A DNA stretch of 64,000 nt from Streptomyces halstedii (GTDB taxonomy: Bacteria > Actinomycetota > Actinomycetes > Streptomycetales > Streptomycetaceae): the NCBI GenBank assembly GCA_000720535.1, contig JOAZ01000006.1, positions 248,001 to 312,000 on the forward strand, in the 5' to 3' direction. Shown in pieces: positions 15,767 to 43,619 of the stretch. The first letter of the stretch is position 1. The number at the start of each line of letters is the position of its first letter. A program made the position numbers and the translations under genes. The notes beneath the pieces were generated by a model. It was not told where the DNA came from and made no database searches. It was given only the letters and a program-made list of their open reading frames with translations.

Positions 15767-17438
15767 GGGCGCACACGCTCCCAGGGGTCGCACACGCGTC
15801 CAAGCACGCGTGCGCCGTTGATGCGCCCAGGGGCGTGGGCATCCAATGGGGGCGGGTACGGCGGCGGGCCCCGCCGCGCCACCCGGCGGGTACGGCTGTG
15901 CCGTACACCGCCGAGTCGTACCCGTGAGGACCCGTGAGGACCCCTTGAGGAGGGACCATGGCCGATTCGCCCATGACCGAACCCCAGCAGGAGATCCCGA
16001 CCGAAGTGGTGCGACTGCCCGTGCTCGGCGCCTGCGGCTGCGGCTCGGGCTGCGGGTGCGGCTGCCAGTCCGGCTCCCCGTGCCAGTGCGGCGGCGGCTG
16101 CTGACGGGACACCCGTGAGGCGGGGCCCCGCCACGGGCTCACCCTCCCCCGCGGGGCCCCCCCCCCCCCGCGGGCCGGCCGCAACCGCCGCCGCCCCGGC
16201 ACCGGGGGGCGGCCGGTCGCGGGCTGCACCGGCCGGGGCAGCTTCCGCATCAGCAGCCAGTAACCGGCCGCGGCCACCGTGCCCAGGACCGCGCAGGTCC
16301 CCCAGAGCCAGTCCGCGCCGTAGTGGTCGATCACGAAGCCGGACATCAGCGGGGCGACGAGGGCCGCCGCCGACCAGGACATCGTGTACATGCCCTGGTA
16401 ACGGCCCCGGCCGTGGGCCGGCGACAACTGGACGACGATGCCCGTCTGTGTCGGGGCGTTGACGATCTCGGCCAGCGTCCAGACGCACACCGTCAGCGCG
16501 TACACCCCGACCGACCCGGCGAAAGCGGTCAGCCCGAAGCCGTACCCCGCGATCACCGACGAGAGGATCAGCAGGCGGCGGGGGTCGCGGTGCTGGATGA
16601 AGCGCGTCACCGGGATCTGCATGACCACGATCAGCACGCCGTTCACGGCGATGGCCGTACCGAAGTCGGAGCTGGACAGCCCGTCCGCGCCCATGGCGAC
16701 CGGCAGGCCCACGTACCCCTGCTGGAAGATCAGCGCGACGAGGAACGACAGCCCCACGACACCCATGAAGCGCCCGTCCCGCAGGACGGTGGTCAGCCGC
16801 ACGTCGTCGGGGGCACGGGTACCGGCCGGGGTCTCCACCCGCTCGGGCCGGGACTCCGGCACCTTCAGGAAGACGAGGACGGCGCAGACCAGCGTGAGCG
16901 CGGCCTCGCCCAGGAACCCGGCCAGATAGCTGTACTCGGCGACGAACCCGGCCCCGGCCGCCGAGACGGCGAACCCCAGGTTGATCGCCCAGTAGTTCAG
17001 CGAGAAGGCCCGCACCCGGTCGGCGGGCGGCACGATGTCGGCCATCATCGCCTGCACGGCCGGCCGGGACGCGTTGGAGGCCATACCGACCAGGAAGGCC
17101 ACCCCCGCGATGGCGAGCGGATGGACCATGAAGCCGAGCACCGCCACGGACACGGCGGTGGACAGCTGGGCGATCAGCATCGTGGGCCGCCGCCCCAGCC
17201 GGTCCGTCATCACCCCGGCCCCCAGCGCGGAGACGACTCCGCCCAGCCCGTGGAGAGCGACGACGAGACCGGCGTAGGAGGCGGAGTAGCCCCGGCCCAT
17301 GGTCAGGTAGAGCGCCATGAAGGTGGCGACGAACCCTCCGAGGCGGTTGACCAGCGTGCTGATCCACAGCCACCAGAACTCCCTGGGGAGACCGGCGACC
17401 GTCTCGCGTGCCGCCTTTCTGAGACCGGCGACGGACAT
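15711..17438 (-). CDS. MFS transporter with 3' read-through past a poly-G tract
   Basis: ATG 17438 (MSVAGLRKAARETV) is preceded by GGGGGGAAG. About 410 residues form a 12-helix major facilitator with the loop motif MTDRLGRRPTML. After KLPRPVQPATG the gene meets a run of 13 G (plus-strand C 16157-16169). With 13 bases the frame stays open for ~140 more low-complexity residues, antisense to the Cys-rich peptide and the phoU end; with 12 it would stop at TGA 16141-16139 just after the tract. The short form is the more plausible protein, so either slippage or a base-count error alters the C-terminus. Substrate unknown. Confidence 0.8.
   Translation of the reverse strand: MSVAGLRKAARETVAGLPREFWWLWISTLVNRLGGFVATFMALYLTMGRGYSASYAGLVVALHGLGGVVSALGAGVMTDRLGRRPTMLIAQLSTAVSVAVLGFMVHPLAIAGVAFLVGMASNASRPAVQAMMADIVPPADRVRAFSLNYWAINLGFAVSAAGAGFVAEYSYLAGFLGEAALTLVCAVLVFLKVPESRPERVETPAGTRAPDDVRLTTVLRDGRFMGVVGLSFLVALIFQQGYVGLPVAMGADGLSSSDFGTAIAVNGVLIVVMQIPVTRFIQHRDPRRLLILSSVIAGYGFGLTAFAGSVGVYALTVCVWTLAEIVNAPTQTGIVVQLSPAHGRGRYQGMYTMSWSAAALVAPLMSGFVIDHYGADWLWGTCAVLGTVAAAGYWLLMRKLPRPVQPATGRPPVPGRRRLRPARGGGGAPRGRVSPWRGPASRVSRQQPPPHWHGEPDWQPHPQPEPQPQAPSTGSRTTSVGISCWGSVMGESAMVPPQGVLTGPHGYDSAVYGTAVPAGWRGGARRRTRPHWMPTPLGASTAHACLDACATPGSVCAPTLPPPRPVSGSRRRARP
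15958..16104 (+). CDS. 48-residue cysteine-rich, metallothionein-like peptide
   Basis: ATG 15958 follows an excellent GAGGAGG site. The N-half is acidic/polar (MADSPMTEPQQEIPTEV) and the C-half has eight cysteines in Cys-Gly-Cys and Cys-x3-Cys arrays alternating with Gly and Ser. This layout suggests metal (Zn/Cu) binding or a very small metallothionein; no aromatic residues occur in the Cys part. It lies between phoU and the convergent MFS gene and is opposite the read-through tail of that gene. Function is inferred from composition only. Confidence 0.7.
   Translation: MADSPMTEPQQEIPTEVVRLPVLGACGCGSGCGCGCQSGSPCQCGGGC
16157..16169. repeat. 13-base homopolymer (C on plus strand)
   Basis: Thirteen consecutive C residues inside the 3' end of the MFS gene. 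Its length decides whether the gene stops within 30 bases or reads on for another 430. Confidence 0.9.
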
Positions 17439-17669
17439 AGGGCTTCCCCCCGGGGACGTACGGAACGGTTGGGTGCCGCGGGTGGGCGCCGCGGCTGCGC
17501 GCGGTAAGTGGCCCGGCAGCTGTCCGAACATTACGAAGCCGGAATCCCGGACCGCCACTCAATTGACGCCGACCGTCAAACGTCACACCGCGGCAGCCGT
17601 ACGCGACGCCCGTGTCCGTCCTGTGGCCGGGCGCGCGGGGGCCGATCCGCTTCGATTACGCTCGGACAC

Positions 17670-18431
17670 ATGGCCGACGCACCGTACAAGCTGATCCTCC
17701 TCCGCCACGGCGAGAGCGACTGGAACGCGAAGAACCTGTTCACCGGATGGGTGGACGTCAACCTCACCGACAAGGGAGAGAAGGAGGCGGTCCGCGGCGG
17801 TGAGCTGCTCAAGGACGCCGGCCTGCTCCCGGACGTCGTGCACACCTCCCTCCAGAAGCGCGCGATCCGCACCGCCCAGCTCGCGCTGGAGGCGGCCGAC
17901 CGCCACTGGATCCCCGTACACCGCTCCTGGCGTCTGAACGAGCGCCACTACGGCGCCCTCCAGGGCAAGGACAAGGCGCAGACGCTCGCCGAGTTCGGCG
18001 AGGAGCAGTTCATGCTCTGGCGCCGCTCGTACGACACCCCGCCGCCGGCTCTTGAGGACGGCACCGAGTTCTCGCAGAGCAACGACGCCCGCTACGCGAC
18101 GATCCCGCCGGAGCTGCGCCCGCGCACGGAGTGCCTCAAGGACGTCGTCATCCGCATGATGCCGTACTGGTACGACGACATCGTCCCGGACCTCCTCACC
18201 GGCCGCACGGTCCTGGTCGCCGCCCACGGCAACAGCCTGCGCGCCCTGGTCAAGCACCTGGACGGCATCTCCGACGCGGACATCGCGGGCCTCAACATCC
18301 CGACCGGCATCCCGCTCTCCTACGAACTGGACGCCGACTTCCGCCCGCTGAACCCGGGCGGCACGTACCTCGACCCGGACGCGGCGAAGGCCGCGATCGA
18401 GGCCGTGAAGAACCAGGGCAAGAAGAAGTAG
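17670..18431 (+). CDS. gpmA: 2,3-bisphosphoglycerate-dependent phosphoglycerate mutase GpmA
   Basis: 253 residues. Interconverts 3- and 2-phosphoglycerate in glycolysis. The phospho-histidine motif [10 protein letters not shown] (His11) is at the start, the second catalytic His is in [11 protein letters not shown], and substrate-binding [13 protein letters not shown] is present. Length and motifs match the dPGM family. TACGCT sits seven bases before ATG 17670 and there is no ribosome site, so the mRNA is probably leaderless; an in-frame start further upstream (17508) is unlikely. Confidence 0.97.
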
Positions 18432-18453
18432 CCCTCCGCTCTTCCCACTTCGG

Positions 18454-18489
18454 ACCCCCTGCGTGCCGGCTCCCGGCGCGACAGGGGGT
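18454..18489 (+). terminator. Terminator after gpmA
   Basis: ACCCCCTG and CAGGGGGT form the outer stem, with an inner GCCGG-CTC-CCGGC stem, about 25 bases after the gpmA stop. Confidence 0.8.
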
Positions 18490-18527
18490 TCCGTGTCGTG
18501 GGGGCGGTGCACCGCCCGGGGCGTGGG

Positions 18528-18938
18528 CTACCTCGCGTCGGGAGTGTTGAAGTTGACGCCGGAGAAGTCACGTCCCTGGAGGACCGGGGCGTGCTGGGTG
18601 CCTCCGCTGATCTCGTTACTCGTCTCGCCGTCCCCGGTGCGCAGCTCCCGGGCCTGCTGGTGCCACTGCGCCAGGCCCGCCCCGAAGGAGGGGTCGTGCT
18701 GGGCGCGGCGGCTCAGGGCCTCGCTCAGGGCGCGCGCCCGTTCCTCGTCACGGGGTGCCTCGTCGAGCGCGGTCAGCTCCTCTTCGCCGGTCGTCACGGC
18801 CCGCCGGTCGACGACGCCTCCCTGCGATCCGGGAGCTCTGCGCACCAGGCCGCTCAGAGTCAGCCAGAGGTGCCGCCCGGCCTCCCCCGCCGTCCCGGTC
18901 GCCATCGCCACAAGGAGTCCTGCTGAGATCGGGTCCAT
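18528..18938 (-). CDS. Small protein with STAND-associated C-terminal motif
   Basis: 136 residues from ATG 18938. No enzyme signature is seen. Residues 1-30 are mildly hydrophobic (ISAGLLVAMATGTAGEAG), 50-100 predicted helical and charged. The C-terminus (N108 to F130) reads N-x-I-x-GG-x5-P-x-L-Q-x-RD-x2-G-x2-F. A near copy of this glycine-rich segment occurs between the N-terminal helical domain and the NB-ARC domain of the ATPase at 22.8 kb. In actinobacteria such segments join effector-associated domains to STAND NTPases, so this protein may be a partner or adaptor of the island's ATPases. That is inference. Confidence 0.7.
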   Translation of the reverse strand: MDPISAGLLVAMATGTAGEAGRHLWLTLSGLVRRAPGSQGGVVDRRAVTTGEEELTALDEAPRDEERARALSEALSRRAQHDPSFGAGLAQWHQQARELRTGDGETSNEISGGTQHAPVLQGRDFSGVNFNTPDAR

Positions 18939-19230
18939 ACCGTGCGTCCCCCGCCCGTGAACAGATCGGAGCACCAGGGTCTCAGGAAGCGTCTTCGGGA
19001 GGAAGGGGACAATCAAGCCGTAGCCCGTGGGTGCGGGGGACGGTGGCCTGTCGTGACCGGGACGTGTTTCTCCGAACGCCCCGACAGCGGCCCTCCGCTC
19101 GGCTAGCCTGGGATCGGACCGCCATCCGCCCGTTGCCGATCTCATCCCTCCTGGACACCCCTCCGCCATGGAGTGTCCGGTACCGAGTGGGCTATGCGCA
19201 TTTCGGTACCGGATTTACACGCGCCGTCGG
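18939..19230. other. Intergenic region in STAND island
   Basis: About 290 bp with no supported gene. It should hold the promoter of the 136-residue protein gene. No repeat or palindrome stands out. Confidence 0.4.
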
Positions 19231-19332
19231 TCAGCTGTACATCGACGACACCCATCCGTGCACGTTCACCGCATATGCGATGCAGGTGAGGCAGGAAAGC
19301 GCTGCTACGGCCGGGAGGATGCGCTTGAGCAT
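19231..19332 (-). CDS. 33-residue hydrophobic leader-like peptide
   Basis: ATG 19332 has AGGA six bases upstream. The peptide is MLKRILPAVAALSCLTCIAY plus a short polar end (13 residues): a basic start, a 17-residue hydrophobic helix and a polar tail, resembling a signal peptide or single-span membrane peptide. It lies downstream of the SARP/NB-ARC regulator on the same strand, the position that afsS has beside afsR, but the sequence is not AfsS-like. Very short, hence moderate confidence. Confidence 0.45.
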   Translation of the reverse strand: MLKRILPAVAALSCLTCIAYAVNVHGWVSSMYS

Positions 19333-19434
19333 GTGGTTCCTATCCGTTCTGCTTTTCAAGGATCGAAGGCACCGCGAAATGGGCGGACTGCACCCCCAGG
19401 GCCGTTGCAGCCGCCGCCAACCGCGATGATCCGT

Positions 19435-19463
19435 AGCGTAATGGCCGTACAGGAATTCGTACA
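19435..19463 (-). promoter_or_regulatory. Candidate promoter of the 33-residue peptide gene
   Basis: On the minus strand TGTACG occurs twice, 12 bp apart, followed five bases later by TACGCT, a good -10 element. The spacing of repeat to -10 resembles promoters activated by SARP proteins, though the period is 12 rather than 11 or 22. The mRNA leader would be about 95 bases. Confidence 0.35.
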
Positions 19464-19569
19464 AATCAAATGTGTGTCCGGCCGGCGAGGCATTTCCCTT
19501 TGTCATATGCGCGAGCCGTGGGCACCGTCGCCATGGATCCGGGGGCAGCGACCTCCGGCCGATCCGTCC

Positions 19570-22500
19570 CTACCGGTTCTCCCGCGTTCCCCGCAGTTCG
19601 GTCAGCGCCCGTGCGGCGCGGGCCTCTTCCGCCGGGGCGCCGATCCGCCGGCTGATCGTCAGGCTCTCCTCCAGGTGGGCCACGGCCGACTCCGTCCGGC
19701 CCAGAGCCTGTTCAGCCCGCGCCAGGTCGTAGAGCACCTCGGCCTCCTCACCTGCGGCACGGATACGGCGGGCCACCACGAGGGCGGCGGTGTGCCAGTC
19801 CAGCGCCTCCTCACCCCGACCGGCGGCGCGGTGCGCGCGGCCGGCCCCGTTCAAGGCGATCGCTTCCCCTCGCCGGTCCCCCACCTCACGCAGCACCGGA
19901 AGCACCACCCCGTACAGAGAAAGGGCTTCGTCCGTTTTCCCGAGGACATCCAGAACACTGGCCAGGTTCATGTGCATGGTCGCCTGGTCCCTCCGGCTCC
20001 CCATTCCCTTCGCCACATCTATCGCTTCCCGGTACGCCCGTTCCGCCGCCTCCGGATTCCCCATTCTCTGATGCAGTTGCGCCAGGTTGTTCAATGTGCT
20101 GTATCTGCCGCGGGAATCGCCTATGCCGGAGAATTCACGTAAGGCGGTCATGAAGCACGCCAATGCTTCCCGATTTTCCGCCAGATGGAGATGGGTGATA
20201 CCGAGCATATTGCGACTGCGTGCCGTGTGTAACGCACTCCCGGATCTCGTCAGCAAATCCAGGGAACGCTTCTGGAGGGACTGGGCCAATGCGTACTGAC
20301 CTGTTTGCCACAGGGGTACCGACAACTGGTGGACACAGTGGACCTCAAGCTCAAGATTCCCCAGCGCGCGCGCCGCTTCCAGGGCTTCGCGGGCTTCCGC
20401 GATGCCGTCCTCGTAGCGGGAGCCGTGGGTGTGTACGGCGCTGAGGTCGAGCAGGGCCCGCGCCCGCGCTGTGCTGTCGCCCACGGATCTCCAGTACGCG
20501 ACGGCCCGTCGCAGCAAGGGCTCGGCCGTCGCGAGGTGTCCTTCCATGTCCAGGAAGCCCGCGAGCACATGGACCGCACGAGCCAGTGGGCGCTCCGGAC
20601 CGTGATCCGCGAGCCCGTTCAGTACGTCCAGGAGATTGGCGCCCTCGGTGATCAGCCATTGTTCGGCCGCGTGCGCGTCGGCCATCTCTGGAGGCTGCGG
20701 AGTGGTCGGGCCGAGGCTGCCGGAAGAGGCCCGGGAACGGAACGGGTACGCCAGCCGATCGGCGCGGTCCGCGGCGCCGAGGTAATGGTCCATGAGGATT
20801 ACAGCGGCCTGCCGCACGTCCTCCGCCGAGTCTGCGTCACCGGAGTCGGTCAACGACCGGGCGTATCCACGCAGCAGGTCATGCATGGTGAACCGGTGCG
20901 GGGAGGGCTCGGACACGAGGTGATGAGCCATGAGTTCTTCCAGCACACGTTCGGCGGTGTCGGGGGAAAGGCCGGTCAGAGCCGCCACCGCGAAAGGCCC
21001 GAATTCCACTCCGCGATGCAGGCCTATACGCCGGAAGACCAGTTGCTGACGGGAGTCGAGCGCCTGGTAGGACAGTTCGAAGACACGCGTCATCGTCCTT
21101 TCGCCGTCCCGCAGTTCGGCGAGGTGGCCACCGTCACGGCCCAGCTGCCGCACGAGGTCGGACGTGGTCCAGGACGGGTGGGCGAGCAGCCGGCTGGCGG
21201 CGATCTCGACGGCCAGGGGCAGGTGGTCGCATATGCGAACGATCTCGGCCACATCGGTCTCGCTGGTCCCGGCTCGCGTCCCGAGGCGTTGCACGAAGAG
21301 GGCGACCGCGTCCTGGGGCGGCAGTACGTCGAGCGAGAGCGCCCGGACGCCCGGGAGCCCTGGGAGGCGCCGTCGGCTGGTCACGATGACCGCCGTCGGC
21401 GAAGCCCCGGGAAGCAGCGGCCGGACCTGCTCCGAGTCGGCGGCGTCGTCCAGGATCACCAGCATGCGGCGGTCACGGGCCGACGAACGCCACAGGGCGA
21501 CCAACTCCTCCGTGGAGCGCGGCAGGTCCTTCACCTCCATGCCGAGCAGACGGAGCAGTTCGGTGAGCACCTGACCGGCGGACCGTGCCGGGCGGTCGGG
21601 TGCGCGCCCTCCCAGATGGACGAAGAGGCGCCCGTCGGGGAACCGCTCCCGCAGCTGATGGGCGACGTGTACGGACAAGGACGTCTTTCCGACACCTCCC
21701 ATCCCGTGGATCGCCTCGACCGTGACCACGACAGCCGCCCCGCCGTCGCCTTCACTCAGAACCGTGCCGAGCCGGTGCAGTTCGTCGGTCCGGCCGACCC
21801 AGGGCACGTCACGCGGCAGGTTGTCCGGAGCCCTGTTCGCCCGCCGTGCGGACTCCTCCTGGCCGCCTGCCGCGTACCGCAAGAGGTTCCTCGCGGGGGC
21901 CCCCGACAGGATTCCCTGGTGTACGCGCTGCAATCGGCGGCCGGCGTCGAGGCCGATGTCGCGGACGACGCGTTGCCTGGTCCGCTGGAGCAGCTTGGTC
22001 GCCTCGGCGGTACGGCTGCTGCCGTACAGGGCGACGGCCAGCCGCTCGGCCAGTGCCTCGTCGACGGGGTGTTCTTCCACCAGCGGCAGCAGGACGGGAA
22101 CCGCGTCGGCGCACCTCCCGGTGTCGATGAGGATGTCGGCCCGGGTCATCGCCGCCGCCAAGGCCGTCTCACCGACGGCGGCGCGCAGGTGCTCGGGCCA
22201 GGAGCCGGCGATCCCGGCCAGCGGCTCTCCGTGCCAGAGGCGGTCCGCGCGGTCCAGCAGCCGCAACGCCGCTCCCGCGTCGCTCTCCCGCAGGGCGCGC
22301 CCCTGGCGGACCGAGTCCGTGTAGCACCGCAGATCCACGCGGTCCGGGTGGACCCGCATCAGGTACGAGTTGGACCGGCTGACGATCACGGGGGCGTCGT
22401 CCCCGGCGATCCGCAGGGCACGGCGGATCCTCGACACGTGCGTGTGCAGCGCCTCCCTCGCCTTCGCCGGGGGATGGTCGTCCCACACACGGTGGATCAG

Positions 22501-22638
22501 GGCATCCATGCTCACGCTGCGGTCGGCGTCCCAGGCGAGCGCTGCCAGGGTGAGTCGTGTCTTGGTCGACCCGAGGTCACTGCGGCGGCCGGCTGCCCGT
22601 ACTTCAACCGATCCCGAGAGTCGGATCTCGAACTCCAC
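19570..22638 (-). CDS. SARP/AfsR-type regulator with NB-ARC and TPR domains
   Basis: 1022 residues from GTG 22638, chosen for its GGAGG six bases upstream (an ATG exists at 22692). Order: OmpR-type winged helix (1-90), BTAD (about 95-240), NB-ARC ATPase (about 275-600) with P-loop GMGGVGKTS (312-320) and Walker B MLVILDDAAD, then TPR repeats (about 690-1010). SARPs activate secondary metabolism or local genes by binding direct heptamer repeats. A TTA codon (20142-20140) makes translation dependent on bldA tRNA. The TPR part, about 19.9-20.4 kb, has visibly lower GC than its surroundings. Divergent from the STAND ATPase gene. Confidence 0.92.
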   Translation of the reverse strand: MEFEIRLSGSVEVRAAGRRSDLGSTKTRLTLAALAWDADRSVSMDALIHRVWDDHPPAKAREALHTHVSRIRRALRIAGDDAPVIVSRSNSYLMRVHPDRVDLRCYTDSVRQGRALRESDAGAALRLLDRADRLWHGEPLAGIAGSWPEHLRAAVGETALAAAMTRADILIDTGRCADAVPVLLPLVEEHPVDEALAERLAVALYGSSRTAEATKLLQRTRQRVVRDIGLDAGRRLQRVHQGILSGAPARNLLRYAAGGQEESARRANRAPDNLPRDVPWVGRTDELHRLGTVLSEGDGGAAVVVTVEAIHGMGGVGKTSLSVHVAHQLRERFPDGRLFVHLGGRAPDRPARSAGQVLTELLRLLGMEVKDLPRSTEELVALWRSSARDRRMLVILDDAADSEQVRPLLPGASPTAVIVTSRRRLPGLPGVRALSLDVLPPQDAVALFVQRLGTRAGTSETDVAEIVRICDHLPLAVEIAASRLLAHPSWTTSDLVRQLGRDGGHLAELRDGERTMTRVFELSYQALDSRQQLVFRRIGLHRGVEFGPFAVAALTGLSPDTAERVLEELMAHHLVSEPSPHRFTMHDLLRGYARSLTDSGDADSAEDVRQAAVILMDHYLGAADRADRLAYPFRSRASSGSLGPTTPQPPEMADAHAAEQWLITEGANLLDVLNGLADHGPERPLARAVHVLAGFLDMEGHLATAEPLLRRAVAYWRSVGDSTARARALLDLSAVHTHGSRYEDGIAEAREALEAARALGNLELEVHCVHQLSVPLWQTGQYALAQSLQKRSLDLLTRSGSALHTARSRNMLGITHLHLAENREALACFMTALREFSGIGDSRGRYSTLNNLAQLHQRMGNPEAAERAYREAIDVAKGMGSRRDQATMHMNLASVLDVLGKTDEALSLYGVVLPVLREVGDRRGEAIALNGAGRAHRAAGRGEEALDWHTAALVVARRIRAAGEEAEVLYDLARAEQALGRTESAVAHLEESLTISRRIGAPAEEARAARALTELRGTRENR

Positions 22639-22830
22639 CAGCGTCCTCCCGCCGGTAGGGCCTTCTGCTGGCCGGGCGTACGAGGCTGCCATGAACCTGC
22701 CACCGTGACCATACGAGGACGAATTACGTCCAAAATTAAGCGATTAGAGAGATGTTCCGTTCGTTTCTCGGATGGATTGGGGAGGACGTTCCGAGGTACC
22801 GATCGGGCGACACCGAAAGGAGCCCCGTAC
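22639..22830. promoter_or_regulatory. Divergent promoter region between SARP and STAND genes
   Basis: About 190 bp, clearly AT rich in the middle (22721-22752). It contains an inverted repeat GGACG-AATTA-CGTCC (22717-22731) that may be an operator serving both genes. No SARP-type 11-bp repeat is seen here. Confidence 0.5.
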
Positions 22831-25239
22831 GTGGAAGCTTCCCGGCTGGAGGCGCTGTACTCGGCCCTGGTGGCCTACGGGACGGACCGGAACTCCCCCG
22901 CCTGGGACGCGCTGACCCGTGTCCTGAAGACGACGTCCGGCACCGACGAGGCGGTGGCCCGGCTCCTGCCCCCTGACGAGGCGGCCCCGGAAGACACCCG
23001 CACGGCGTGGCGGCGGCTGGCCCGGGAACTGGACCGGCTCGCCTCGCACGACGCCGGGACGGACCACGCCCTCACCCACTGGTTACGGCGTCACACCCCG
23101 CCACCGCCGTCGGCGACCGGCAACGTCATCGGCGGCAACTCGGTCCTGCACGGCCCCAGCGTGCAGGCGCGCGACATCCACGGAGGAATCCACTTCCACG
23201 CCGGCACCGAGCGCCCGCGCTCCCCCGCCCCCCGCCAGCTCCCTCCCGTCACCGCCCGGTTCGTCGACCGTGAGGCCGACCGCCGTGTCCTGGACGAGGT
23301 CCGCACCGGAACCGCTGCCCACGCGTCCAGGATCGTGGTGGTCACCGGGCTCGCCGGTGCCGGCAAGACCGCCCTCGTCACCCACTGGCTGTCCGAGCAC
23401 GCGAGCGGCTTCCCCGACGGCCACCTCTACGCGGACCTGGGAGGACACGCCGACGACGAGGACAGTGGGCCGGTTCCTCCCGGCACGGTCCTCGAAGCGT
23501 TCCTCGTGGCACTCGGCGTGCAGTCGGTACCGGCCGGCACCGCCCCACGCAGCGCGCTGTGGCGCTCCGTCACGTCGGAGCTGCGGCTCGCCGTACTCCT
23601 GGACAACGCCTTCACAGCGGCCCAGGTACGTCCGCTACTGCTCGGTACGCCCACCGGACTCACCGTGGTGACCAGCAGGAACTCGCTCACCGGGCTGCGC
23701 GCCGACGGAGCCCGCGTGCACCGGCTGGACGGACTCCCGGCGGAATCGGCCGTCGAACTGCTGGCCACCGGCGGTGGAGCACGCGTATCCCAGGAGCCCG
23801 CCGCCGCGCGGGAAGTGGTCCGGCTGTGCGGGCGTCTGCCCCTGGCCGTCGGGCTGGCCTCCGCCCAACTCGCCGTCCGGCCCCACCGTTCCGTCTCCGC
23901 TCTCGCCGACAGCCTGGCCCACGGGGACGGGGCCGTCGGCACCCTGCGCGTGGACGGAGAGGCGGTGATGAGGACGGCACTGGACCTGTCGTACGGACTG
24001 CTGCCGGACGCGAGCGCCATGCTTTACCGCCTGATGGGCCTGCTCCCCACGGACCGCCACGACCTGTTCATGCTGGCCGCCGTGCTCGACGGCGGGCGGA
24101 CGCCGGACAGCGCGCACCAGATCGACATGACCGTGCAGACCCTCCTGGAGGCGAACCTCCTTGAGGAGACGGGCCCGGGAATCCACCGACTGCACGACGT
24201 CGTCCGGCCGCACGCACGCCGGATGGGAGAGGAGCGGGAGGAACGCGCGTCCCGCGACCGCAGCCTGCGCCGTTTCGTCGACTGGTGCCTGGCCACCTCG
24301 GCCGCCGCCGAGAGCATCCTGACACCGAGCCACCGCATGCGAGAAGAGGCCACACCCGGGGACACGGCCATCGCCACCCCGCTCGCCGGTCCCGAAGAGG
24401 CACTGCTCTGGCTGGACACGCACCGCAACGGGATCATGGGGGCCATCCGGCACTGCGCCCACGCCGGCTGGCACACGTCCTGCTGGCGGCTGACCGATCT
24501 GGCCTGGCCCCTCTTCCTGCGGCTCCGCCCCACGGACCTGTGGATCGAGGCACACCGCCTCGGCCTCGAAGCGGCGCGCCGCAGCGGGTCCAGGCCGGGC
24601 GAGGGCCGCATGCTCACCTCGGGCGCGATCGGTCTGCGCAACGCCGGCCGGTACGAGGAGGCGTGTGACTGGTACCGGCAGGCCCTGGACATGGCCGTCG
24701 CGGACGGGGACGTACGGCAACAGGCACAGTCCCTCAGCGGCCTCGGGCACGTCAGCCTCCTGGCCCTCCGCCTCGACGAAGCCCGCGAGTACTTCGAACA
24801 CACCCTCCGGCTACGGGAGTCGATCGGCTACCGGCGAGGTGTCGCGCTCACTCGGCGCCGCCTCGGGGAGACCGCGCTGGCGGCGGGCGACCTCGCCTCG
24901 GCCGCCCGGTACCTGCGCGACGCCGGGGCCGAGTTGGCGGCGCTGGAGGAGACGTACGAGCAGACCCGGGTGGAGGCGCTTCTCGGCCATGTACTGGACC
25001 TCGGCGGGGAGCATGACGAAGGCGTCCGCCGGTTGCGCGGGGCGTTGCGGGGGTTCCGCGAGGGCGGGTCCAGGTCGGAGCACTGGGAGGGCCGCTGCCT
25101 GGAATGGCTGGGTACGGCCGCCGAGTCCCGGGGCGACCCGACGGACGCGGCGGCCCACTACGAAGCGGCCCGGACCCTCTTCGGACGGCTGGACCCGGCC
25201 GCCGTGGAGCGTCTGGACGACCGGCTGCGGCGCCTGTGA
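22831..25239 (+). CDS. NB-ARC/TPR STAND ATPase
   Basis: 802 residues from GTG 22831 with AAAGGAG eight bases upstream. A helical N-domain (1-90) is followed by the motif N98-x-I-GG...VQARDIHGG (98-120), then NB-ARC with Walker A GLAGAGKT (163-170) and Walker B VLLDNAF, a winged-helix region with the LHDVVRPHAR motif, and C-terminal TPR-like repeats (about 560-790). There is no DNA-binding SARP head, unlike its divergent neighbour, so the N-domain may be the effector or effector-recruiting part. L85 is encoded by TTA, the bldA codon. STAND proteins of this build are switches in regulation and in antiphage or conflict systems; which applies is open. Confidence 0.88.
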   Translation: MEASRLEALYSALVAYGTDRNSPAWDALTRVLKTTSGTDEAVARLLPPDEAAPEDTRTAWRRLARELDRLASHDAGTDHALTHWLRRHTPPPPSATGNVIGGNSVLHGPSVQARDIHGGIHFHAGTERPRSPAPRQLPPVTARFVDREADRRVLDEVRTGTAAHASRIVVVTGLAGAGKTALVTHWLSEHASGFPDGHLYADLGGHADDEDSGPVPPGTVLEAFLVALGVQSVPAGTAPRSALWRSVTSELRLAVLLDNAFTAAQVRPLLLGTPTGLTVVTSRNSLTGLRADGARVHRLDGLPAESAVELLATGGGARVSQEPAAAREVVRLCGRLPLAVGLASAQLAVRPHRSVSALADSLAHGDGAVGTLRVDGEAVMRTALDLSYGLLPDASAMLYRLMGLLPTDRHDLFMLAAVLDGGRTPDSAHQIDMTVQTLLEANLLEETGPGIHRLHDVVRPHARRMGEEREERASRDRSLRRFVDWCLATSAAAESILTPSHRMREEATPGDTAIATPLAGPEEALLWLDTHRNGIMGAIRHCAHAGWHTSCWRLTDLAWPLFLRLRPTDLWIEAHRLGLEAARRSGSRPGEGRMLTSGAIGLRNAGRYEEACDWYRQALDMAVADGDVRQQAQSLSGLGHVSLLALRLDEAREYFEHTLRLRESIGYRRGVALTRRRLGETALAAGDLASAARYLRDAGAELAALEETYEQTRVEALLGHVLDLGGEHDEGVRRLRGALRGFREGGSRSEHWEGRCLEWLGTAAESRGDPTDAAAHYEAARTLFGRLDPAAVERLDDRLRRL

Positions 25240-25280
25240 TCCGCCGCGGCCGGCCGCCGCCACCGCCCCCGCCGTCCCGG

Positions 25281-25973
25281 CTACGCGCTCATGTCGCCGT
25301 ACCACCGGCCCCTGGTGAGCCCTCGCGACGCGAGGGTGACGGAGCGCAGCGCCCCTGGACGTCCGCCGACCGCCGTCCACGCGTGCGCCACCGAGGCGAT
25401 CAGGGCGACGGGAGCCCCGAAGCGGAGATCAGCCTGTCCCTCCCCCACGAACCACAGCCCCTCCGGCCCGCCCCGCACGCCCACGGCAGCCCGCCCGGCA
25501 CCGATGGCGGGCACCGCGGCGACCTGGCAGCCGGGGTGGCGGAGGAGCAGCTCACGCACCCGCAGGTACGCCACCGGCAGGGGCGTCGGCACGCGGCTCA
25601 CCAGGACGTCGGCGTGCTCGACCAGGCTGCCCTCCCGCCGCCGGTCGTCCGGATCCAGGCACAGGTGCACATCGCACGGGAGCCCACCGGGCGGGTGCGC
25701 GCACAGGGGCGGAGGACGGCCCGAGCCGTCCCGTCCGCCTCCGGTCGGCACACCGGTACGGACGGACGCGGAGCCGGAGCCGGTGTCCGAGTACCAGGCG
25801 ACCGAGACCGTCGCGCCGGCGGACCCCTCGACCCGGCGTGCGGCGCGGGCGTCCCGAACCCGCAGGCACACGGCGACCCACCTGGCACCCGGGCCGGACG
25901 CCGGTGCCGGGCCCTGCGCGAAGAATCCGGACGCGGACGCTCCGCCCAGGCCGGACGCCCACCCGCCAGTCAT
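25281..25973 (-). CDS. Unknown protein coupled to the GT-B-like gene
   Basis: 230 residues from ATG 25973, overlapping the stop of the upstream gene by ATGA, so the two are translated together. Not recognised. No signal peptide or membrane helix; the chain is Gly/Arg/Val rich with a run VAVCLRVRDARAARRV near 45-60 and a well-ordered C-terminal half (LFVGEGQ-like GLWFVGEGQADLRFGAPVALIASVAHAW). It ends 41 bp from the convergent STAND ATPase gene. Its constant pairing with the transferase suggests an accessory or co-substrate role. Confidence 0.7.
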   Translation of the reverse strand: MTGGWASGLGGASASGFFAQGPAPASGPGARWVAVCLRVRDARAARRVEGSAGATVSVAWYSDTGSGSASVRTGVPTGGGRDGSGRPPPLCAHPPGGLPCDVHLCLDPDDRRREGSLVEHADVLVSRVPTPLPVAYLRVRELLLRHPGCQVAAVPAIGAGRAAVGVRGGPEGLWFVGEGQADLRFGAPVALIASVAHAWTAVGGRPGALRSVTLASRGLTRGRWYGDMSA

Positions 25974-27208
25974 CCCGCCATCCCTCGCTCGGCGCGGATC
26001 TCCCACTCCTCCAGCGGAGAAGGCGGCGGAGGCGGCGCGACGACCGGCGGACGCGCGGGTTCCCCCAGGCCGAGCAGGCCGTAGACGACCGAACGCATCC
26101 GCCGGTGGAACTCCCCGAGCGCGGAGGACATCGACGCGGCCACTTCGTCGTACTGGCCCGGCCGACGCGACCTCGCCGCGTACTCCAACTGCTCCGCCAC
26201 CGGGTGCAGAGGAGAGACCACCGGTGCGACGGATTCCAGCAACGCGGCCGGAGAGTACGCCGACACCTCGCGCCGCGGGCCGGCCGTGAGCAGCATCGTG
26301 GCGTCGGTCAGCGTGCCGTACGCGCTGAGCGAGCCGTGGTCACCGATGATCCAGTCGGCCGCGATCAGAACCGCCTGCCAGTCGGCCTCCGGAGGCACGA
26401 CCGCGACCCCTCGGCACCCCGCCAGCCAGCCCCGCACCTGCCAGGTGCCGTGGCCCGCGAACACGTTGGGATGAGCCAGCAGCGCGATCCGGTAGCCGCC
26501 GCCCGACAACTCGCCGAGCAGCTGGGGCAACAGGGCGTGCAACTGCCCGAACGTCGAAGTGGGCCCCCAGGTGGAGCTGACGACCACGAGCCGCTGCCCG
26601 TCCTCGATGCCCAGAGCGCGCCGGTAGTACTCCCGCCGGGGCATCTCCGCCGTGATCCGGTCGACGCAGGGGTCGCCCACGACATGAGCCATCGGCAGCG
26701 CCTCCGGGCACGAGCGGGCCAGCTCCACCAGGTCGCGTTCGTGGGCGTAGACGATCGCCGCGGGCACCACCCTTCCCTCGTGCGTCAGGTGACCCCGGCT
26801 CAGCATGCCCGGCGCCCTGGGTTCTCCCGGTGCCAGAGCCGAGACGTCGGTGAGCAGTTTGATCTGCCCCGCCCCGTGGGAGATCCGCACGAGAGGAGCC
26901 CGCAGCTCGTGCAGCCCACGGGACCCCGCGGCCAGCGCGAGGTCGAACTCCGCGCGAAGGGCCTCCTCCCAGGGCACGGGGCTGATGCCGAGGCTTCGCA
27001 GGTAGCCGGTGACTCCGCTGCCGAAGGCGTGTGGCGCCGCGGTGAAGATGACCTGGATGCGCAGGTCCGCCTCCAACAGACCGAAGACCTCCCGCAGTCG
27101 TTGGGCGAAGGTCACGGTGTGGACGATCACCAGAACCCTCTTGCAGTCCCGCACGGTCAGCCAGTGGCCCTGTTCGATCAGTGCCGTCTTCGTGGTTCTC
27201 AAGGACAT
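25970..27208 (-). CDS. GT-B-fold transferase, CDP-glycerol glycerophosphotransferase-like
   Basis: 412 residues from ATG 27208 (MSLRTTKTALIEQG). Two Rossmann-like halves: N-half starting RVLVIVHTVTFAQRL, C-half starting RLVVVSSTWGPTSTFGQ. The late segment AADWIIGDHGSLSAYGTLTDATMLL corresponds to the donor-binding D-x-S-S region of poly(glycerophosphate) transferases and the related 2-epimerase-like fold. The substrate could be a teichoic-acid-type or glycosyl donor; this is by fold only. The C-terminus is Pro rich. Three 11-bp-spaced heptamers upstream (27273-27301) suggest SARP control. First gene of a two-gene operon. Confidence 0.7.
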   Translation of the reverse strand: MSLRTTKTALIEQGHWLTVRDCKRVLVIVHTVTFAQRLREVFGLLEADLRIQVIFTAAPHAFGSGVTGYLRSLGISPVPWEEALRAEFDLALAAGSRGLHELRAPLVRISHGAGQIKLLTDVSALAPGEPRAPGMLSRGHLTHEGRVVPAAIVYAHERDLVELARSCPEALPMAHVVGDPCVDRITAEMPRREYYRRALGIEDGQRLVVVSSTWGPTSTFGQLHALLPQLLGELSGGGYRIALLAHPNVFAGHGTWQVRGWLAGCRGVAVVPPEADWQAVLIAADWIIGDHGSLSAYGTLTDATMLLTAGPRREVSAYSPAALLESVAPVVSPLHPVAEQLEYAARSRRPGQYDEVAASMSSALGEFHRRMRSVVYGLLGLGEPARPPVVAPPPPPSPLEEWEIRAERGMAG

Positions 27209-27434
27209 GCGATCCCCCGTCGCTCGTCTTCGGGTGTGCCGAGCGAAGGGTTCCCCGGCGGTCACGGCACTTTCCTTGCACGGTCCTTGCAATGCCCTTG
27301 CCGTGCCGCATGACCAGGAGCCGCTCCCCGTGCCGGAGCGCTTGCGGTGCGCCCCCGGCCCGGAAGGGGCGACGAGCACCACCGGACACGACGCGTGGAG
27401 CCGGGCGCGCTGTCCCTGCCGCCCAGCCCCGTCA
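27209..27434. other. Intergenic region with SARP-type repeats
   Basis: 226 bp between the transferase start and the MOSC stop, both on the minus strand. Besides the heptamer repeats (27273-27301) nothing is recognised. Confidence 0.5.
27273..27301 (-). promoter_or_regulatory. Candidate SARP operator: three heptamers at 11-bp period
   Basis: On the plus strand TCCTTGC (27273-27279), TCCTTGC (27284-27290) and CCCTTGC (27295-27301) are separated by exactly four bases each. Direct heptamers with 4-bp spacers are the binding pattern of SARP regulators. They lie 65-93 bp upstream of the transferase ATG, within reach of its promoter. Confidence 0.6.
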
Positions 27435-28304
27435 CTACGCGCCCTGTCGGCCCCCCGGCACGCGTTCCGGCGCCTCCACCTCCGGCTCGCCCCATGCCGT
27501 GACCGTCACGTCGTCTCCCACCGCCAGGCGACCCGGCCGGAGCACGGCGTACTTGGTGCCGAAGGCGACTCCGCCGCCGGGCGCCCGGCGGTAGCGGGCG
27601 AGGGTGCGCAGGGGCTCGGGGCCCGGCCGGTGGCCCGTCCGCTGGTCGACCAGGACCACCGCGCAGCGGATCGCCACCTTCGCGTAGGCCAGTTCCGTCG
27701 TGCCGATCGTGAGCCGGTGGGCCCGGTCCTCGGTGTGCGGCTCGGGCCAGCCGTCGATCACCACGTTCGGGCGGAAGCGGCTCATGGGGAGCGGGGGTGC
27801 GCCGGTCTCGGCCAGTTTCCGGTCGAGGTGGGCGAGCGTGGAGCGGGAGATGACGTGTACGGCGCTGCTGTCGGCGTACCCGGATGTGCCCGGGACGCGG
27901 CCGTCGGTCACCCGGTCGTGCTCCGGCGGTACCCGGACCAGCCGGCTGGGGGCGCCGAGCACCTCCGAGAGCCACTCCGCCACCGCGTCCCCCTGGTCGA
28001 TGCCCCGGAACGCGGTGCCGAACAGTTCGACCCGGCGGCGGGCCCCCGAAGTGTCCACGGGCAGGGTGAGGGGCTCCGTGTCCGGGGCGCCGAGGGTGAG
28101 CCGCGTGCCGTCTTCACCGACGGCGGGCCGGATGACCGCCAGCCGGGGGTCGCGGCGCTGGGTGCGGAAGACGCCCTCGTCGTCGACCACCATGAAGCTG
28201 CGGTCGTGCGCCAGGCCCGCGGGTGTCATCCATGCCTCGGCGGGCGTCGCCCCGGCGCATCCCTTGACGGGGTAGTACGTCAACTCCGCGACGTGGGCGG
28301 CCAT
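27435..28304 (-). CDS. MOSC domain protein (mARC/YcbX-like)
   Basis: 289 residues. The N-terminal MOSC beta-barrel (about 1-120, starting VAELTYYPVKGCAG) is followed by the MOSC domain (about 130-270). The Moco-binding cysteine region AIRCAVVLVDQRTG (Cys at about 217, with D and TG downstream) matches the conserved R-C-x5-D-x2-TG pattern. Such proteins reduce N-hydroxylated compounds or carry molybdenum cofactor; partner redox proteins are not seen here. Stands alone, 9-bp repeats upstream. Confidence 0.9.
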   Translation of the reverse strand: MAAHVAELTYYPVKGCAGATPAEAWMTPAGLAHDRSFMVVDDEGVFRTQRRDPRLAVIRPAVGEDGTRLTLGAPDTEPLTLPVDTSGARRRVELFGTAFRGIDQGDAVAEWLSEVLGAPSRLVRVPPEHDRVTDGRVPGTSGYADSSAVHVISRSTLAHLDRKLAETGAPPLPMSRFRPNVVIDGWPEPHTEDRAHRLTIGTTELAYAKVAIRCAVVLVDQRTGHRPGPEPLRTLARYRRAPGGGVAFGTKYAVLRPGRLAVGDDVTVTAWGEPEVEAPERVPGGRQGA

Positions 28305-28325
28305 GGCGTGCTCTCAGTCCGTCTC

Positions 28326-28383
28326 ATCGGTTCCATCGGTTCCATCGGTTCCATCGGTTCCATCGGTTCATCTGTTCCATCGG
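28326..28383. repeat. 9-bp tandem repeat upstream of MOSC gene
   Basis: Units of atcggttcc occur four times exactly, followed by an eight-base variant, atctgttcc and a partial unit; a more diverged ggcggt/gtcggtcc stretch continues to 28440. Lies between the MOSC start and the methyltransferase stop. Confidence 0.9.
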
Positions 28384-28445
28384 CCTCGGCGGTTACTTCG
28401 ACCTCGGCGGTCCCGGCGGTCCTGTCGGTCCCGTCCGTCCCGAAA

Positions 28446-29114
28446 CTAGTCGGTGACCAGCGCCAGGGTGAAGCCGTTGTACCCCTTGGAGCCGACCGTC
28501 TGGATCGTCGTGGCGGTGAGCCTGGGGTGCGCCGCGATCAGCTCCGTGAAGCGGCGCACGCCCTGGACCCGGGGGTCGGTGCTCGCCGGGTCGATGACCG
28601 CGCCGTCGCGGACGACGTTGTCGCCGACGATGACGCTGCCGGGGCGGGTCAGACGCAGGGCCCACTCCAGATAGGCCGGGTTGGACGGCTTGTCGGCGTC
28701 GATGAAGACCAGGTCGAACGGGCCCGCCCCCTCGTCCGCCAGCGCGGGCAGGGAGTCCAGGGCCGGGCCCACCCGGAGGTCCACCGTGCCGTCCAGACCG
28801 GCGCCCGCGATGTTGGCGGCGGCCACGGCCGCGTACCCCTCGTCGGCCTCCAGGGTGACCAGGCGGCCGTCCGCCGGGAGGGCTCGGGCGAGCCAGACGG
28901 TGCTGTAGCCGCCGAGGGTGCCGATCTCCAGAATCGTGCGCGCGCCCTGGATCCGGGCCAGCAGGTGCAGCAACTTGCCCTGGTTCGGGGCTACCTGATG
29001 CTCCGGGAGATGTGAGCTGCCGCTGTGCGCGGCGACCGCGCGCAGGGCGTCGTCCTCCTCCACCAGCAGGCCGTTGAAGTAGTCGTCGACGGATGTCCAG
29101 AGCTGCTGCGGCAT
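28446..29114 (-). CDS. O-methyltransferase, class I SAM-dependent (COMT-like)
   Basis: 222 residues, full length for the AdoMet_MTase_3 family. SAM motif I ILEIGTLGGYSTVWLA (about 62-77), acidic residue E90 (TLEADEG), the metal-binding DLVFIDADKPSN (D about 134 and 136) and VGDNVV are present; these are the Mg-dependent catechol/caffeoyl-CoA methyltransferase signatures. Acceptor unknown. AAGGGGAA precedes ATG 29114. Confidence 0.93.
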   Translation of the reverse strand: MPQQLWTSVDDYFNGLLVEEDDALRAVAAHSGSSHLPEHQVAPNQGKLLHLLARIQGARTILEIGTLGGYSTVWLARALPADGRLVTLEADEGYAAVAAANIAGAGLDGTVDLRVGPALDSLPALADEGAGPFDLVFIDADKPSNPAYLEWALRLTRPGSVIVGDNVVRDGAVIDPASTDPRVQGVRRFTELIAAHPRLTATTIQTVGSKGYNGFTLALVTD

Positions 29115-29352
29115 ATGAGTTCCCCTTAGATACCGACTCGGTCCCGAACCTACTGCGGTCGCACGACGGCCTGTCGGTGATTCCGGTGATCGCCGTGGGT
29201 CCGGGCCGGGTGGCCGGAGTCAAGGTCCCGTGACGGCCCCTCAGCGAGGGCCACCGGATAACGTGGCCTGTACGCCGTCCCGTTCGGCAGGTGCGTACAC
29301 GGTGCGGAACGGGTACAGAGCGCAGAGGGCAAGGAGATCGGGGAGAGCGATC

Positions 29353-29601
29353 ATGGGCGAGTCTCTGAAGACCTTCGTCGGGGGGACCGAGGTCGACGTC
29401 CCCAACAGCATCCCGGCGATCCGCGCCGCGCTGCCCGAGGAGAGACGCGAGGAGTTCGACCGGGCGATCAACGAGGCGGGGGTGCACGAAATCCAGGCCG
29501 TCATGCGGCACTGGATGCTGGAGTCCGTACCCGACCCCGAGGCCGAACAGATCCTGGACAGACTGGCCCAGGACGAGGCCGAGAGGCGGAGCGTGGCTTG
29601 A
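29353..29601 (+). CDS. Antitoxin-like protein (DUF6247 type)
   Basis: 82 residues from ATG 29353. Acidic and helical, beginning MGESLKTFVGGTEVDVPNSI; matches the small proteins that precede RelE/ParE-like toxins in Streptomyces. Its stop overlaps the start of the next gene by TTGA, the compact layout of type II toxin-antitoxin operons. DNA-binding residues are not obvious. Confidence 0.75.
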   Translation: MGESLKTFVGGTEVDVPNSIPAIRAALPEERREEFDRAINEAGVHEIQAVMRHWMLESVPDPEAEQILDRLAQDEAERRSVA

Positions 29602-29840
29602 GCTTCCGTATCTCCTTCGCACCGCCCGCCGACGACACCCTGGCCAAGATGCGGAACGGCGACTCGTTCCGGCGCGAGATGGCGCGCACCCTGGGCCTCG
29701 ATCCGTACGGATACGCCTCGACCGCCGTGAAACGCGAACGCGACCGGCGCGAGGCCACCGTGGCCGGCGCCATCGTCCTCTACTACGTCTCCGGGACGGT
29801 GCTCACCGTCACCGTCGTCCGGCTCGTCCCCCTGCCGTGA
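29598..29840 (+). CDS. RelE/ParE-like toxin
   Basis: 80 residues from TTG 29598, which overlaps the antitoxin stop. The pattern is that of the RelE/ParE fold: N-terminal helical part (PPADDTLAKM, FRREMARTLGLDPYGYAST) then VKRERDRREATVAGAIVLYYVSGTVLTVTVVR strands, with DPYG and the basic RERDRR typical of the family. RelE members cleave ribosome-bound mRNA; ParE members poison gyrase; which one applies is not determined. Slightly short at the C-terminus. Confidence 0.75.
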   Translation: MSFRISFAPPADDTLAKMRNGDSFRREMARTLGLDPYGYASTAVKRERDRREATVAGAIVLYYVSGTVLTVTVVRLVPLP

Positions 29841-29876
29841 ACCGGGAGGGGCACCGCCCCGCCCCACACCGGCCCC

Positions 29877-30389
29877 TCAACTCCTCCTGGCGTGCCGGTC
29901 CGTGTCGCCCAGGGACTCCAACAGGCCCCGCAGGTCGTCCGCGACCCGCTCGCGCTGCTCGTGAGTCAGGCCGGAGAGCAGTCGGTTCTGGTTGTCCACA
30001 TGGTCCACCAGCGCCCGGTCGATCAGCTCCCGGCCCGCCTCGGTGAGGGACACGTACACGCTGCGGCCGTCGCCCTCCCTGCGCGTACGGACGACGAGTT
30101 CGCGCGCCTCAAGCCGGTCCAGCCGCTGGGTGATCGCCCCGGACGTGACCATCGCGGACCGCATCAGGTCGGCCGGGGTCAGCCGGTGCGGTGCCGGGCT
30201 GCGGCGGAGCGTCGCCAGCACGTCGAACGCGGCCGCGTCCAGGTCATGGGCGCCGAAGGCGGCACGCTGCTCCGCCTCGATGATCCGCGCCAGCCGCTTG
30301 ACCCGCCCGAACACCCCCATCGACGAGGTGTCGAGCCCGGGGACCTGCTCGGCCCACTGCGCCAGTACACGGTCCACATGGTCGCTCAT
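29877..30389 (-). CDS. MarR family regulator
   Basis: 170 residues. Winged-helix domain about 40-120 with LTPADLMRSAMVTSGAITQRLDRLEARELVVR and the wing RRREGDGRSVYVSLTEAGREL; N- and C-terminal helices form the dimer interface. Divergent from the DMT exporter gene, with two palindromes between them (30409-30444), the common MarR arrangement in which the repressor controls itself and an efflux gene and responds to a small ligand. Confidence 0.92.
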   Translation of the reverse strand: MSDHVDRVLAQWAEQVPGLDTSSMGVFGRVKRLARIIEAEQRAAFGAHDLDAAAFDVLATLRRSPAPHRLTPADLMRSAMVTSGAITQRLDRLEARELVVRTRREGDGRSVYVSLTEAGRELIDRALVDHVDNQNRLLSGLTHEQRERVADDLRGLLESLGDTDRHARRS

Positions 30390-43118: not shown

Positions 43119-43619
43119 TCACGGAGCATCCCCATCGTGATCGATGAGGGACACGCCCGACGCCAGAGCGCGGGCAACGTCGGCGAAGTACTGCTCGTCG
43201 GCGCCAGGGGCGAGACCGAGGGGGACGCCCTGGCTGAGGCCGACGAACACCGCCCTGAGCGCGGTGGTCAGGCGATGCGCCTGTTGCGACGTCACGACGC
43301 CTCCGTGGTGCGACCTTCCGGTGAACAGCGCGATCAGATGGTTCTCCTGCGACCGGACGGACGTGGCGAGCTGGGACCCCGGCTCGGGGTCATGCAGGGC
43401 CATGTCCAGCAAGGTGATCTGGAGTGACAGGCGAGACAACGCGTCCGGCGCGTCACAACTGCGCCGGTAGTACCGGGCAAAGGCGTCGACCGCTTCCAGC
43501 AGATCAAGTCCAGCGGGGACCGCCCGCTCGACCTCCTCGTAGTACGGCCGCAGGCAGTCGGCGACCAGGAGGTGTTGCTCGCCGCCGTCTACATCGCCTG
43601 CGCTGCCCCGCTCGGCCGG
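43119..43619 (-). pseudogene. TetR-type regulator, 5'-truncated
   Basis: The frame from 43619 down to 43119 encodes ~165 residues resembling the C-terminal ligand domain of a TetR protein (LVADCLRPYYEEVERAVPAG, DLLEAVDAFARYYRRSCDA, ending VARALASGVSLIDHDGD). No start codon and no N-terminal HTH exist; an in-frame stop lies just upstream. The break point coincides with the start of the oppositely oriented membrane-protein gene, suggesting a deletion between two divergent genes. Confidence 0.75.

Follow-up and report, generated by a model that had tools for sequence, protein, structure and literature searches.

Large regulators of the Streptomyces antibiotic regulatory protein (SARP) family are best known as activators of gene clusters (PMC10972967), and by rule act at direct repeats with an 11-bp period before the target (PMC10936776). 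In AfsR, ATP releases the SARP domain from inhibition by the NOD and TPR domains (PMC10936776), and the SARP-LAL protein PimR binds three CGGCAAG heptamers separated by 4-bp spacers (PMC5930380). In the bacterial amyloid signalling sequence (BASS) arrangement, short motifs are found at the N-termini of NLR proteins and at the C-termini of BELL proteins encoded by adjacent genes (PMC7889193, PMC12261475, PMC8086366, PMC9815663). In the GT4-STAND counter-invader systems, GT4 domains were predicted by Kaur et al. to be effectors fused to NTPases of the STAND (signal transduction ATPases with numerous domains) class (PMC8195603). Here, we report on a six-gene locus of Streptomyces halstedii with some likeness to each of these, located between gpmA and a MOSC gene in a 64,000-nt stretch (contig JOAZ01000006.1, positions 248,001 to 312,000), referred to as the window; coordinates are counted from its first nucleotide.

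The locus belongs to a real and conserved system which carries no name: a literature search by titles and abstract openings returned no paper describing this gene set, although subscription papers were mostly outside its reach and it is thus no proof. With high confidence, the system is conserved as such and its transferase operon is under the control of its SARP regulator. A single regulated system had been suggested in the first-pass annotation of the window, and the comparison with relatives bears this out. The genes for a GT-B-like protein (GTB), its unknown partner (UNK), a divergent NB-ARC/TPR STAND protein (NLR) and often the SARP regulator travel together, their pairwise distances correlate over 67 loci (GTB-SARP 0.92, GTB-NLR 0.94, SARP-NLR 0.90), and the operator tracks the SARP gene. 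All six genes claimed in that annotation, including the small motif protein (BELL), were recovered after correction of their borders, and are listed here together with their motifs and regulatory regions.

18528..18938, minus strand: BELL-like small protein, 136 aa, with hydrophobic N-terminus MDPISAGLLVAMATG... and the shared motif at its C-terminus
18546..18620, minus strand: amyloid-like motif SNEISGGTQHAPVLQGRDFSGVNFN, C-terminal in the BELL-like protein, with a related motif in the NLR N-terminus
19231..19332, minus strand: hydrophobic peptide, 33 residues with TCIAY core, conserved 3' of the SARP gene
19570..22692, minus strand: SARP-NB-ARC-TPR transcription factor (large SARP), 1040 aa, exact start uncertain, TTA codons 821 and 851
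22693..22830, no strand: SARP-NLR intergenic region (GC 54.3%), containing an AT-rich block that is conserved and probably divergent promoters
22831..25239, plus strand: NLR, divergent NB-ARC/TPR STAND protein, 802 aa, TTA codon 85 at 23083-23085
23119..23199, plus strand: amyloid-like motif GNVIGGNSVLHGPSVQARDIHGGIHFH in the NLR N-terminus, before the NB-ARC domain, matched by the BELL profile
25281..25973, minus strand: UNK protein, 230 aa, start overlapping the GTB stop (ATGA)
25970..27208, minus strand: GTB, GT-B-like transferase family protein, 412 aa
27270..27302, minus strand: SARP-type operator, three GCAAG repeats with an 11-bp period, upstream of GTB

Relatives were collected in three sets. 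Set A comprised the best 40 regions among the small-protein matches listed from a search of 150 Streptomyces genomes, and set B 40 regions around GTB matches (150 genomes searched), which were picked by score from a longer list with neighbours disregarded, excluding set A loci and a number of others. Set C held the best 80 of at least 560 GTB matches in named genomes. The sets overlap, as at least L058, L059, L060, L066 and L067 of set B and several loci of set A recur in set C. Genes were called with a GC-frame script, and since this caller misses some genes, the calls were supplemented by six-frame scans, for which the profiles were derived from the window together with sets A and B.

In 71 of the 78 set C loci with a called GTB, an NB-ARC protein was encoded no more than three genes away. 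The six-frame scan added such a partner in L108, L119 and L130, giving 74/76 evaluable loci, when L115, L121, L136 and L171 with a contig edge just past GTB are left out. One exception was L159, where the NLR and SARP genes were about 8 kb and 4.7 kb, respectively, from GTB. In set B, all 39 evaluable loci had the NB-ARC protein at most three genes from GTB (38 by gene calls, L079 by six-frame scan; L060 was cut). As background, genes more than four positions away from GTB encoded NB-ARC proteins at a rate of 1/518 in set C and 1/234 in set B. A SARP-NB-ARC gene was within three genes of GTB in at least 53/78 set C and at least 16/39 set B loci, and a separate UNK gene was present in at least 52/78 and 14/39 loci, respectively. 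The combination of GTB, UNK, NLR and often the SARP gene was found in Streptomyces, Kitasatospora, Actinacidiphila, Streptosporangium, Sphaerisporangium, Actinomadura and Nonomuraea. One evaluable set C locus, L127, had neither NLR, SARP gene nor operator found, and possibly represents a decayed or orphan copy.

The distribution of the genes is patchy, with GTB matches in 71 and small-protein matches in 43 of the 150 Streptomyces genomes (both in 34, small protein alone in 9, GTB alone in 37, neither in 70; p 6e-7). In an evenly drawn sample of the phylum, GTB was detected at E 1e-15 in 4/296 genomes, so the family is narrow. GTB was also present on seven plasmid records, in one of which it is annotated as a hypothetical protein and the neighbouring NLR as an ATP-binding protein. 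Independent occurrence of the genes, which the first-pass annotation had named as evidence that would speak against one system, was not seen for GTB with NLR (74/76 and 39/39 loci). It was seen in part for the SARP gene, absent at some loci. The same partly holds for the small protein, as 9 of the 43 genomes with it had no GTB match and many of its loci were without GTB. GTB-UNK is the constant partner of the NLR, and the small protein and the peptide are accessory parts.

The best-supported step within the system is SARP control of GTB-UNK, on account of the comparative evidence on operator and SARP gene and the precedents of PimR and AfsR. The large SARP has the expected DNA-binding, BTAD (E 1e-23), NB-ARC (4e-10) and TPR (TPR_12, 4e-33) domains, and direct repeats with an 11-bp period precede its apparent target. 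It scored 478.8 bits against the NCBIfam AfsR equivalog model NF053617, not reaching the cut-off of 1430. The apparent operator before the transferase, already noted in the first-pass annotation, withstood the comparison with relatives: GCAAG-type repeats at the same period were kept upstream of GTB in 16 close relatives with non-aligning flanks. Among the variants, the first repeat reads ACAAG in L103 and L104, and one repeat and the spacing are altered in L113. When one mismatch was allowed, the triple repeat had a single site in the genome of the window, with zero mismatches.

For a wider survey, the two-repeat pattern GCAAG-N6-GCAAG with at most one mismatch was searched for within 200 bp upstream of genes in 122 distinct loci. 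Upstream of GTB, it was present in 79/85 loci with a local SARP gene (68/72, and 11/13 where the SARP was found within 600 bp of GTB), in 6/26 intact SARP-less loci, and in 7/11 contig-cut loci. Upstream of other called genes it was found in 6/1791 cases, none of them exact matches. Counted separately, it preceded 0/82 SARP, 1/134 NLR and 0/56 BELL genes. The contrasts of 79/85 with 6/26 and 6/1791 gave Fisher p values of 7e-12 and 2e-124, their significance being inflated by relatedness among the loci and by overlap of the sets. The operator was absent from all 19 intact loci that have no SARP gene and encode the long GTB form with its C-terminal extension. In four of the six SARP-less loci with an operator, a SARP homologue was encoded elsewhere in the genome (62% in the genomes of L040, L144 and L163, and 70% in that of L070), and the genome of L127, a locus without operator, had no SARP match at the cut-off. 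These patterns link operator and SARP gene, and the SARP would presumably bind the repeats.

Besides the inflation of the p values, some results weigh against this assignment. A reversed-pattern control also had one match in the genome at up to one mismatch; the true site is exact. Of the SARP-less loci with an operator, L122 had only a 43% SARP match in its genome and L141 none at the cut-off. A sequence-free repeat test was less clean, as 45/85 loci with a SARP gene and 11/37 others reached p ≤0.02; these 11 consisted of seven contig-cut loci (L033, L056, L060, L129, L139, L147, L171), three with a SARP in trans (L040, L144, L163), and L141.

The second switch protein of the locus, the NLR, starts with GTG preceded by AAAGGAG. 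In Pfam searches it matched TPR_12 (E 1e-16), and stayed below the cut-offs for AAA_16 (28.7 bits, cut-off 32.6) and NB-ARC (19.6 bits, cut-off 23.5). Residues 131-783 matched the NCBIfam AfsR model with an E-value of 1e-79, far under the model cut-off. For the BELL-like protein, Pfam, NCBIfam and PADLOC searches gave no match; the six-frame scan returned a full-length profile match, in which the window's own sequence was part of the profile seed. Its hydrophobic N-terminus was judged by eye.

Motif sharing within the locus, noted in the first-pass annotation, was confirmed for these two proteins, since the C-terminal motif of the BELL-like protein and the N-terminal motif of the NLR are related. 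Moreover, the BELL profile matched NLR N-termini of the relatives through this motif, often together with some preceding sequence. Motifs of cognate BELL/NLR pairs were more alike than those of non-cognate pairs (0.467 vs 0.422, permutation p 0.0007, 18 distinct loci), a comparison confounded by relatedness, and the pair of the window was among the less alike (0.38). Outside the motif, similarity of the BELL domain to the NLR N-terminus was weak (probability 58 over 32 columns; reversed control 0.3). Some relatives that lack the SARP gene, among them L040, L144, L163 and L041, have the BELL gene next to the NLR gene. The NLR of L091 (6251-8878) carries an almost complete BELL-like domain plus motif as an N-terminal fusion. 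BELL-like proteins for which no GTB or NB-ARC neighbour of this type was detected were encoded in L023, L027-L029, L032, L034, L036-L039, L042-L052 and L054. Other BELL partners probably exist, as another nearby open reading frame (ORF) in L027 carries a similar motif.

The motif pair resembles that of the BASS/BELL systems reportedly set out by Dyrka et al. in 2020, and signalling of a BASS-like type is probable for the locus by analogy. The NLR motif of the window contains QARD, and an ARD pattern has been reported for BASS2 (PMC9815663). As in the BASS NLR-BELL systems of actinobacteria (PMC7889193, PMC8086366, PMC9815663), a short motif is located at the NLR N-terminus and a copy at the C-terminus of a small protein. 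Unlike them, the window has the SARP gene and the peptide between BELL and NLR, a GTB-UNK operon, a SARP switch, and a BELL gene that is optional among relatives. Since the genes are neither adjacent nor overlapping in the window, we do not file the locus as a strict BASS member, though it probably works like one.

GTB itself had no match in Pfam and NCBIfam searches and no credible relative in the PDB by sequence. When 28 diverse GTB members were queried, five matched Glyphos_transf (PF04464) weakly, with a best E-value of 0.0074. A match inside the GTB gene of another genome (G031) passed the cut-off of this family (24.5 vs 22.1). In profile comparisons, an alignment of diverse GTB sequences gave probabilities of 87.5 for Epimerase_2 (PF02350) and 55 for Glyphos_transf, as against 67 and 1.4 with a narrow alignment, and the likeness was confined mainly to the C-terminal part. 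No similarity was detected to the profile of the GT4 N-terminal domain. Residues H111, G112, H246, W277 and D290 are among the invariant columns of the 28 sequences, and HPN (246-248) and GDHGS (289-293) are invariant in 47 closer ones; the HG, HPN and GDHGS stretches are taken to correspond to those of the two Pfam families. On these grounds GTB is likely a GT-B-fold transferase, distantly similar at profile level to enzymes acting on wall polymers and sugar nucleotides. Glyphos_transf is a family of teichoic-acid polymerases. GTB differs from both families in its lack of a Pfam match, in its size of about 400 aa, and in adjoining an NLR in nearly all loci.

The best start of UNK is the ATG at 25973, by which the GTB stop and UNK start overlap as ATGA at 25970-25973; a longer frame (25281-26006) was rejected as too long. 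The same four-base overlap was present in the gene calls of at least ten relatives. In a distant form with NLR and without SARP (most of L080-L095), UNK is fused to the GTB C-terminus. No Pfam family matched more than one of 41 UNK members. In L161, L165 and L173 (Streptosporangium, Sphaerisporangium, Actinomadura), a tandem pair of UNK-type genes follows GTB on its 3' side.

Both switch genes of the window contain TTA codons, which were found in three of its 61 called genes altogether; the remaining one is located at 43572-43925. In sets B and C, TTA was present in 50/77 SARP, 60/122 NLR and 27/117 GTB genes and in 44/1376 others, corresponding to 1.19, 0.97, 0.54 and 0.12 TTA per 1000 codons, respectively. 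Among the other genes of at least 500 codons, 5/136 had TTA. As bldA is the sole UUA tRNA gene in S. coelicolor (PMC2000904), the codons in both switch genes suggest bldA-dependent translation in late growth.

The small peptide gave no match in Pfam and NCBIfam searches. A loose pattern combined with a hydrophobicity filter over loci L016-L175 and the window returned 16 hits; after omission of three repeats of one locus and addition of L104 by eye, ORFs of 28-58 residues with a TC[I/M/L]A core followed the SARP gene in 14 distinct close loci, the window included. The start was 91-211 bases past the SARP stop in 15 measured loci, and a chance ORF is unlikely to explain this peptide.

The organisation of the locus is well supported. 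As its explanation we favour, at slightly better than even odds, a two-tier STAND system conserved among hyphal actinobacteria. In the first tier, the SARP-NB-ARC-TPR protein would be a signal-gated activator, which binds the triple GCAAG repeat and turns on the GTB-UNK operon. It shares its architecture with AfsR (PMC10936776), and its operator has the three GCAAG-type heptamers and 11-bp period of PimR (PMC5930380). In contrast to both, its apparent target is an NLR-linked transferase operon instead of a metabolite cluster. In the second tier, the NB-ARC/TPR protein would be an NLR-like sensor, with an N-terminal motif that may template the C-terminal motif of the BELL-like protein, which would then polymerise, act on the membrane, and stop or kill the cell. 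GTB-UNK would modify a glycan, lipid or small molecule, either as the effector itself or by making what the NLR reads. That the system ends in defence or self-limiting death has a little under an even chance. Self-recognition and developmental death are likewise candidate outcomes, and the phage defence, self-recognition and cell-surface alteration suggested in the first-pass annotation are conjectural. A more elaborate version is speculative and rather improbable, namely an immune or self-limiting death system that takes two signals and has no described counterpart. In it, the SARP would prime GTB, the NLR would read the product or target of GTB and fire an amyloid-templated membrane killer, the 33-residue peptide would be a further part in the membrane, and TTA codons would tie the whole to development.

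Several observations count against the two-tier system. UNK is without a recognised fold, the profile matches of GTB are weak and its catalysis is a prediction, and PADLOC, run on the five larger proteins, the corrected UNK and the peptide, had as its sole match a generic TPR model for both STAND proteins and no system-specific model for any protein of the island. BELL and NLR are not neighbours in the window, and the assignment of their motif to a BASS family is unproven. As BELL is absent from many GTB loci, killing by BELL is not a constant function.

The same optional BELL and the constant GTB-NLR core would suit a developmental or wall-modification module, in which a SARP-induced transferase would reshape a surface polymer in late growth under control by the NLR, with BELL as an incidental partner in some strains. 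The TTA codons in both switch genes and the distant likeness of GTB to Glyphos_transf (weak in five members, above the cut-off in one match) point the same way. We still hold this to be unlikely, because GTB is patchy among Streptomyces genomes and occurs on plasmids, gpmA, MOSC and the PhoU-like gene did not exceed 60 bits in any of the 40 small-protein regions, and housekeeping wall synthesis would not ordinarily involve an NLR bearing a BELL-like motif. Another conceivable, though doubtful, arrangement is a GT-B conflict effector resembling the GT4-STAND systems (PMC8195603): the NLR would sense an invader and activate GTB-UNK on host or invader molecules, with the SARP tuning the dose. In both cases a GT-B-type enzyme is tied to STAND NTPases, and GTB-UNK adjoins the NLR even without SARP and BELL. 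However, GTB belongs to another enzyme family and has no GT4 domain by Pfam or by the GT4 N-domain profile, the genes are separate with no GTB-NLR fusion noticed in the gene calls, the window adds an amyloid-like motif and a SARP operator, and activation of GTB-UNK by the NLR is hypothetical. A pathway-specific large SARP next to a glycosyltransferase could also be an orphan fragment of a secondary-metabolite cluster without immune role, in line with the best-known function of large SARPs. This is very improbable, since no further gene family is widely recurrent: when the 617 remaining genes located up to six positions from GTB in 77 set C loci were grouped by similarity, the most frequent cluster was present in 11 loci and the second most frequent in 7.

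Such bacteria commonly have NLR-type switches, but what these act on is rarely known. For the two-tier system, the evolutionary record supplies a wiring in which a single operator precedes a single target operon with a single likely activator, and the NLR and the enzyme stay paired in nearly all of more than 100 loci. With such wiring, it becomes possible to test in a tractable host what an orphan large SARP does and what an amyloid-type NLR of bacteria brings about.

As to the genomic setting, the lower GC ascribed to the island in the first-pass annotation proved weak (71.1% vs 73.0%), since 42 of 277 equal-sized stretches of the window were equally low or lower. Low values were limited to 69.5% in the SARP gene, 67.4% in the BELL-peptide stretch and 54.3% in the gap between SARP and NLR. 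A fixed insertion site between gpmA and the MOSC gene was considered and is not shown by the data: gpmA was matched in 61/61 and MOSC in 16/61 genomes, and the two lay at least 375 kb apart in the six other genomes that carry them on the same contig. None of gpmA, MOSC and the PhoU-like gene exceeded 60 bits in the 40 regions around small-protein matches; therefore, the genomic place in these relatives differs from that in the window. A tRNA search of the 64-kb window and an Rfam search of positions 16000-30000 returned no match. Between the MOSC and PhoU-like genes of the window, a 9-bp tandem repeat of 6.7 copies is located at 28325-28383.

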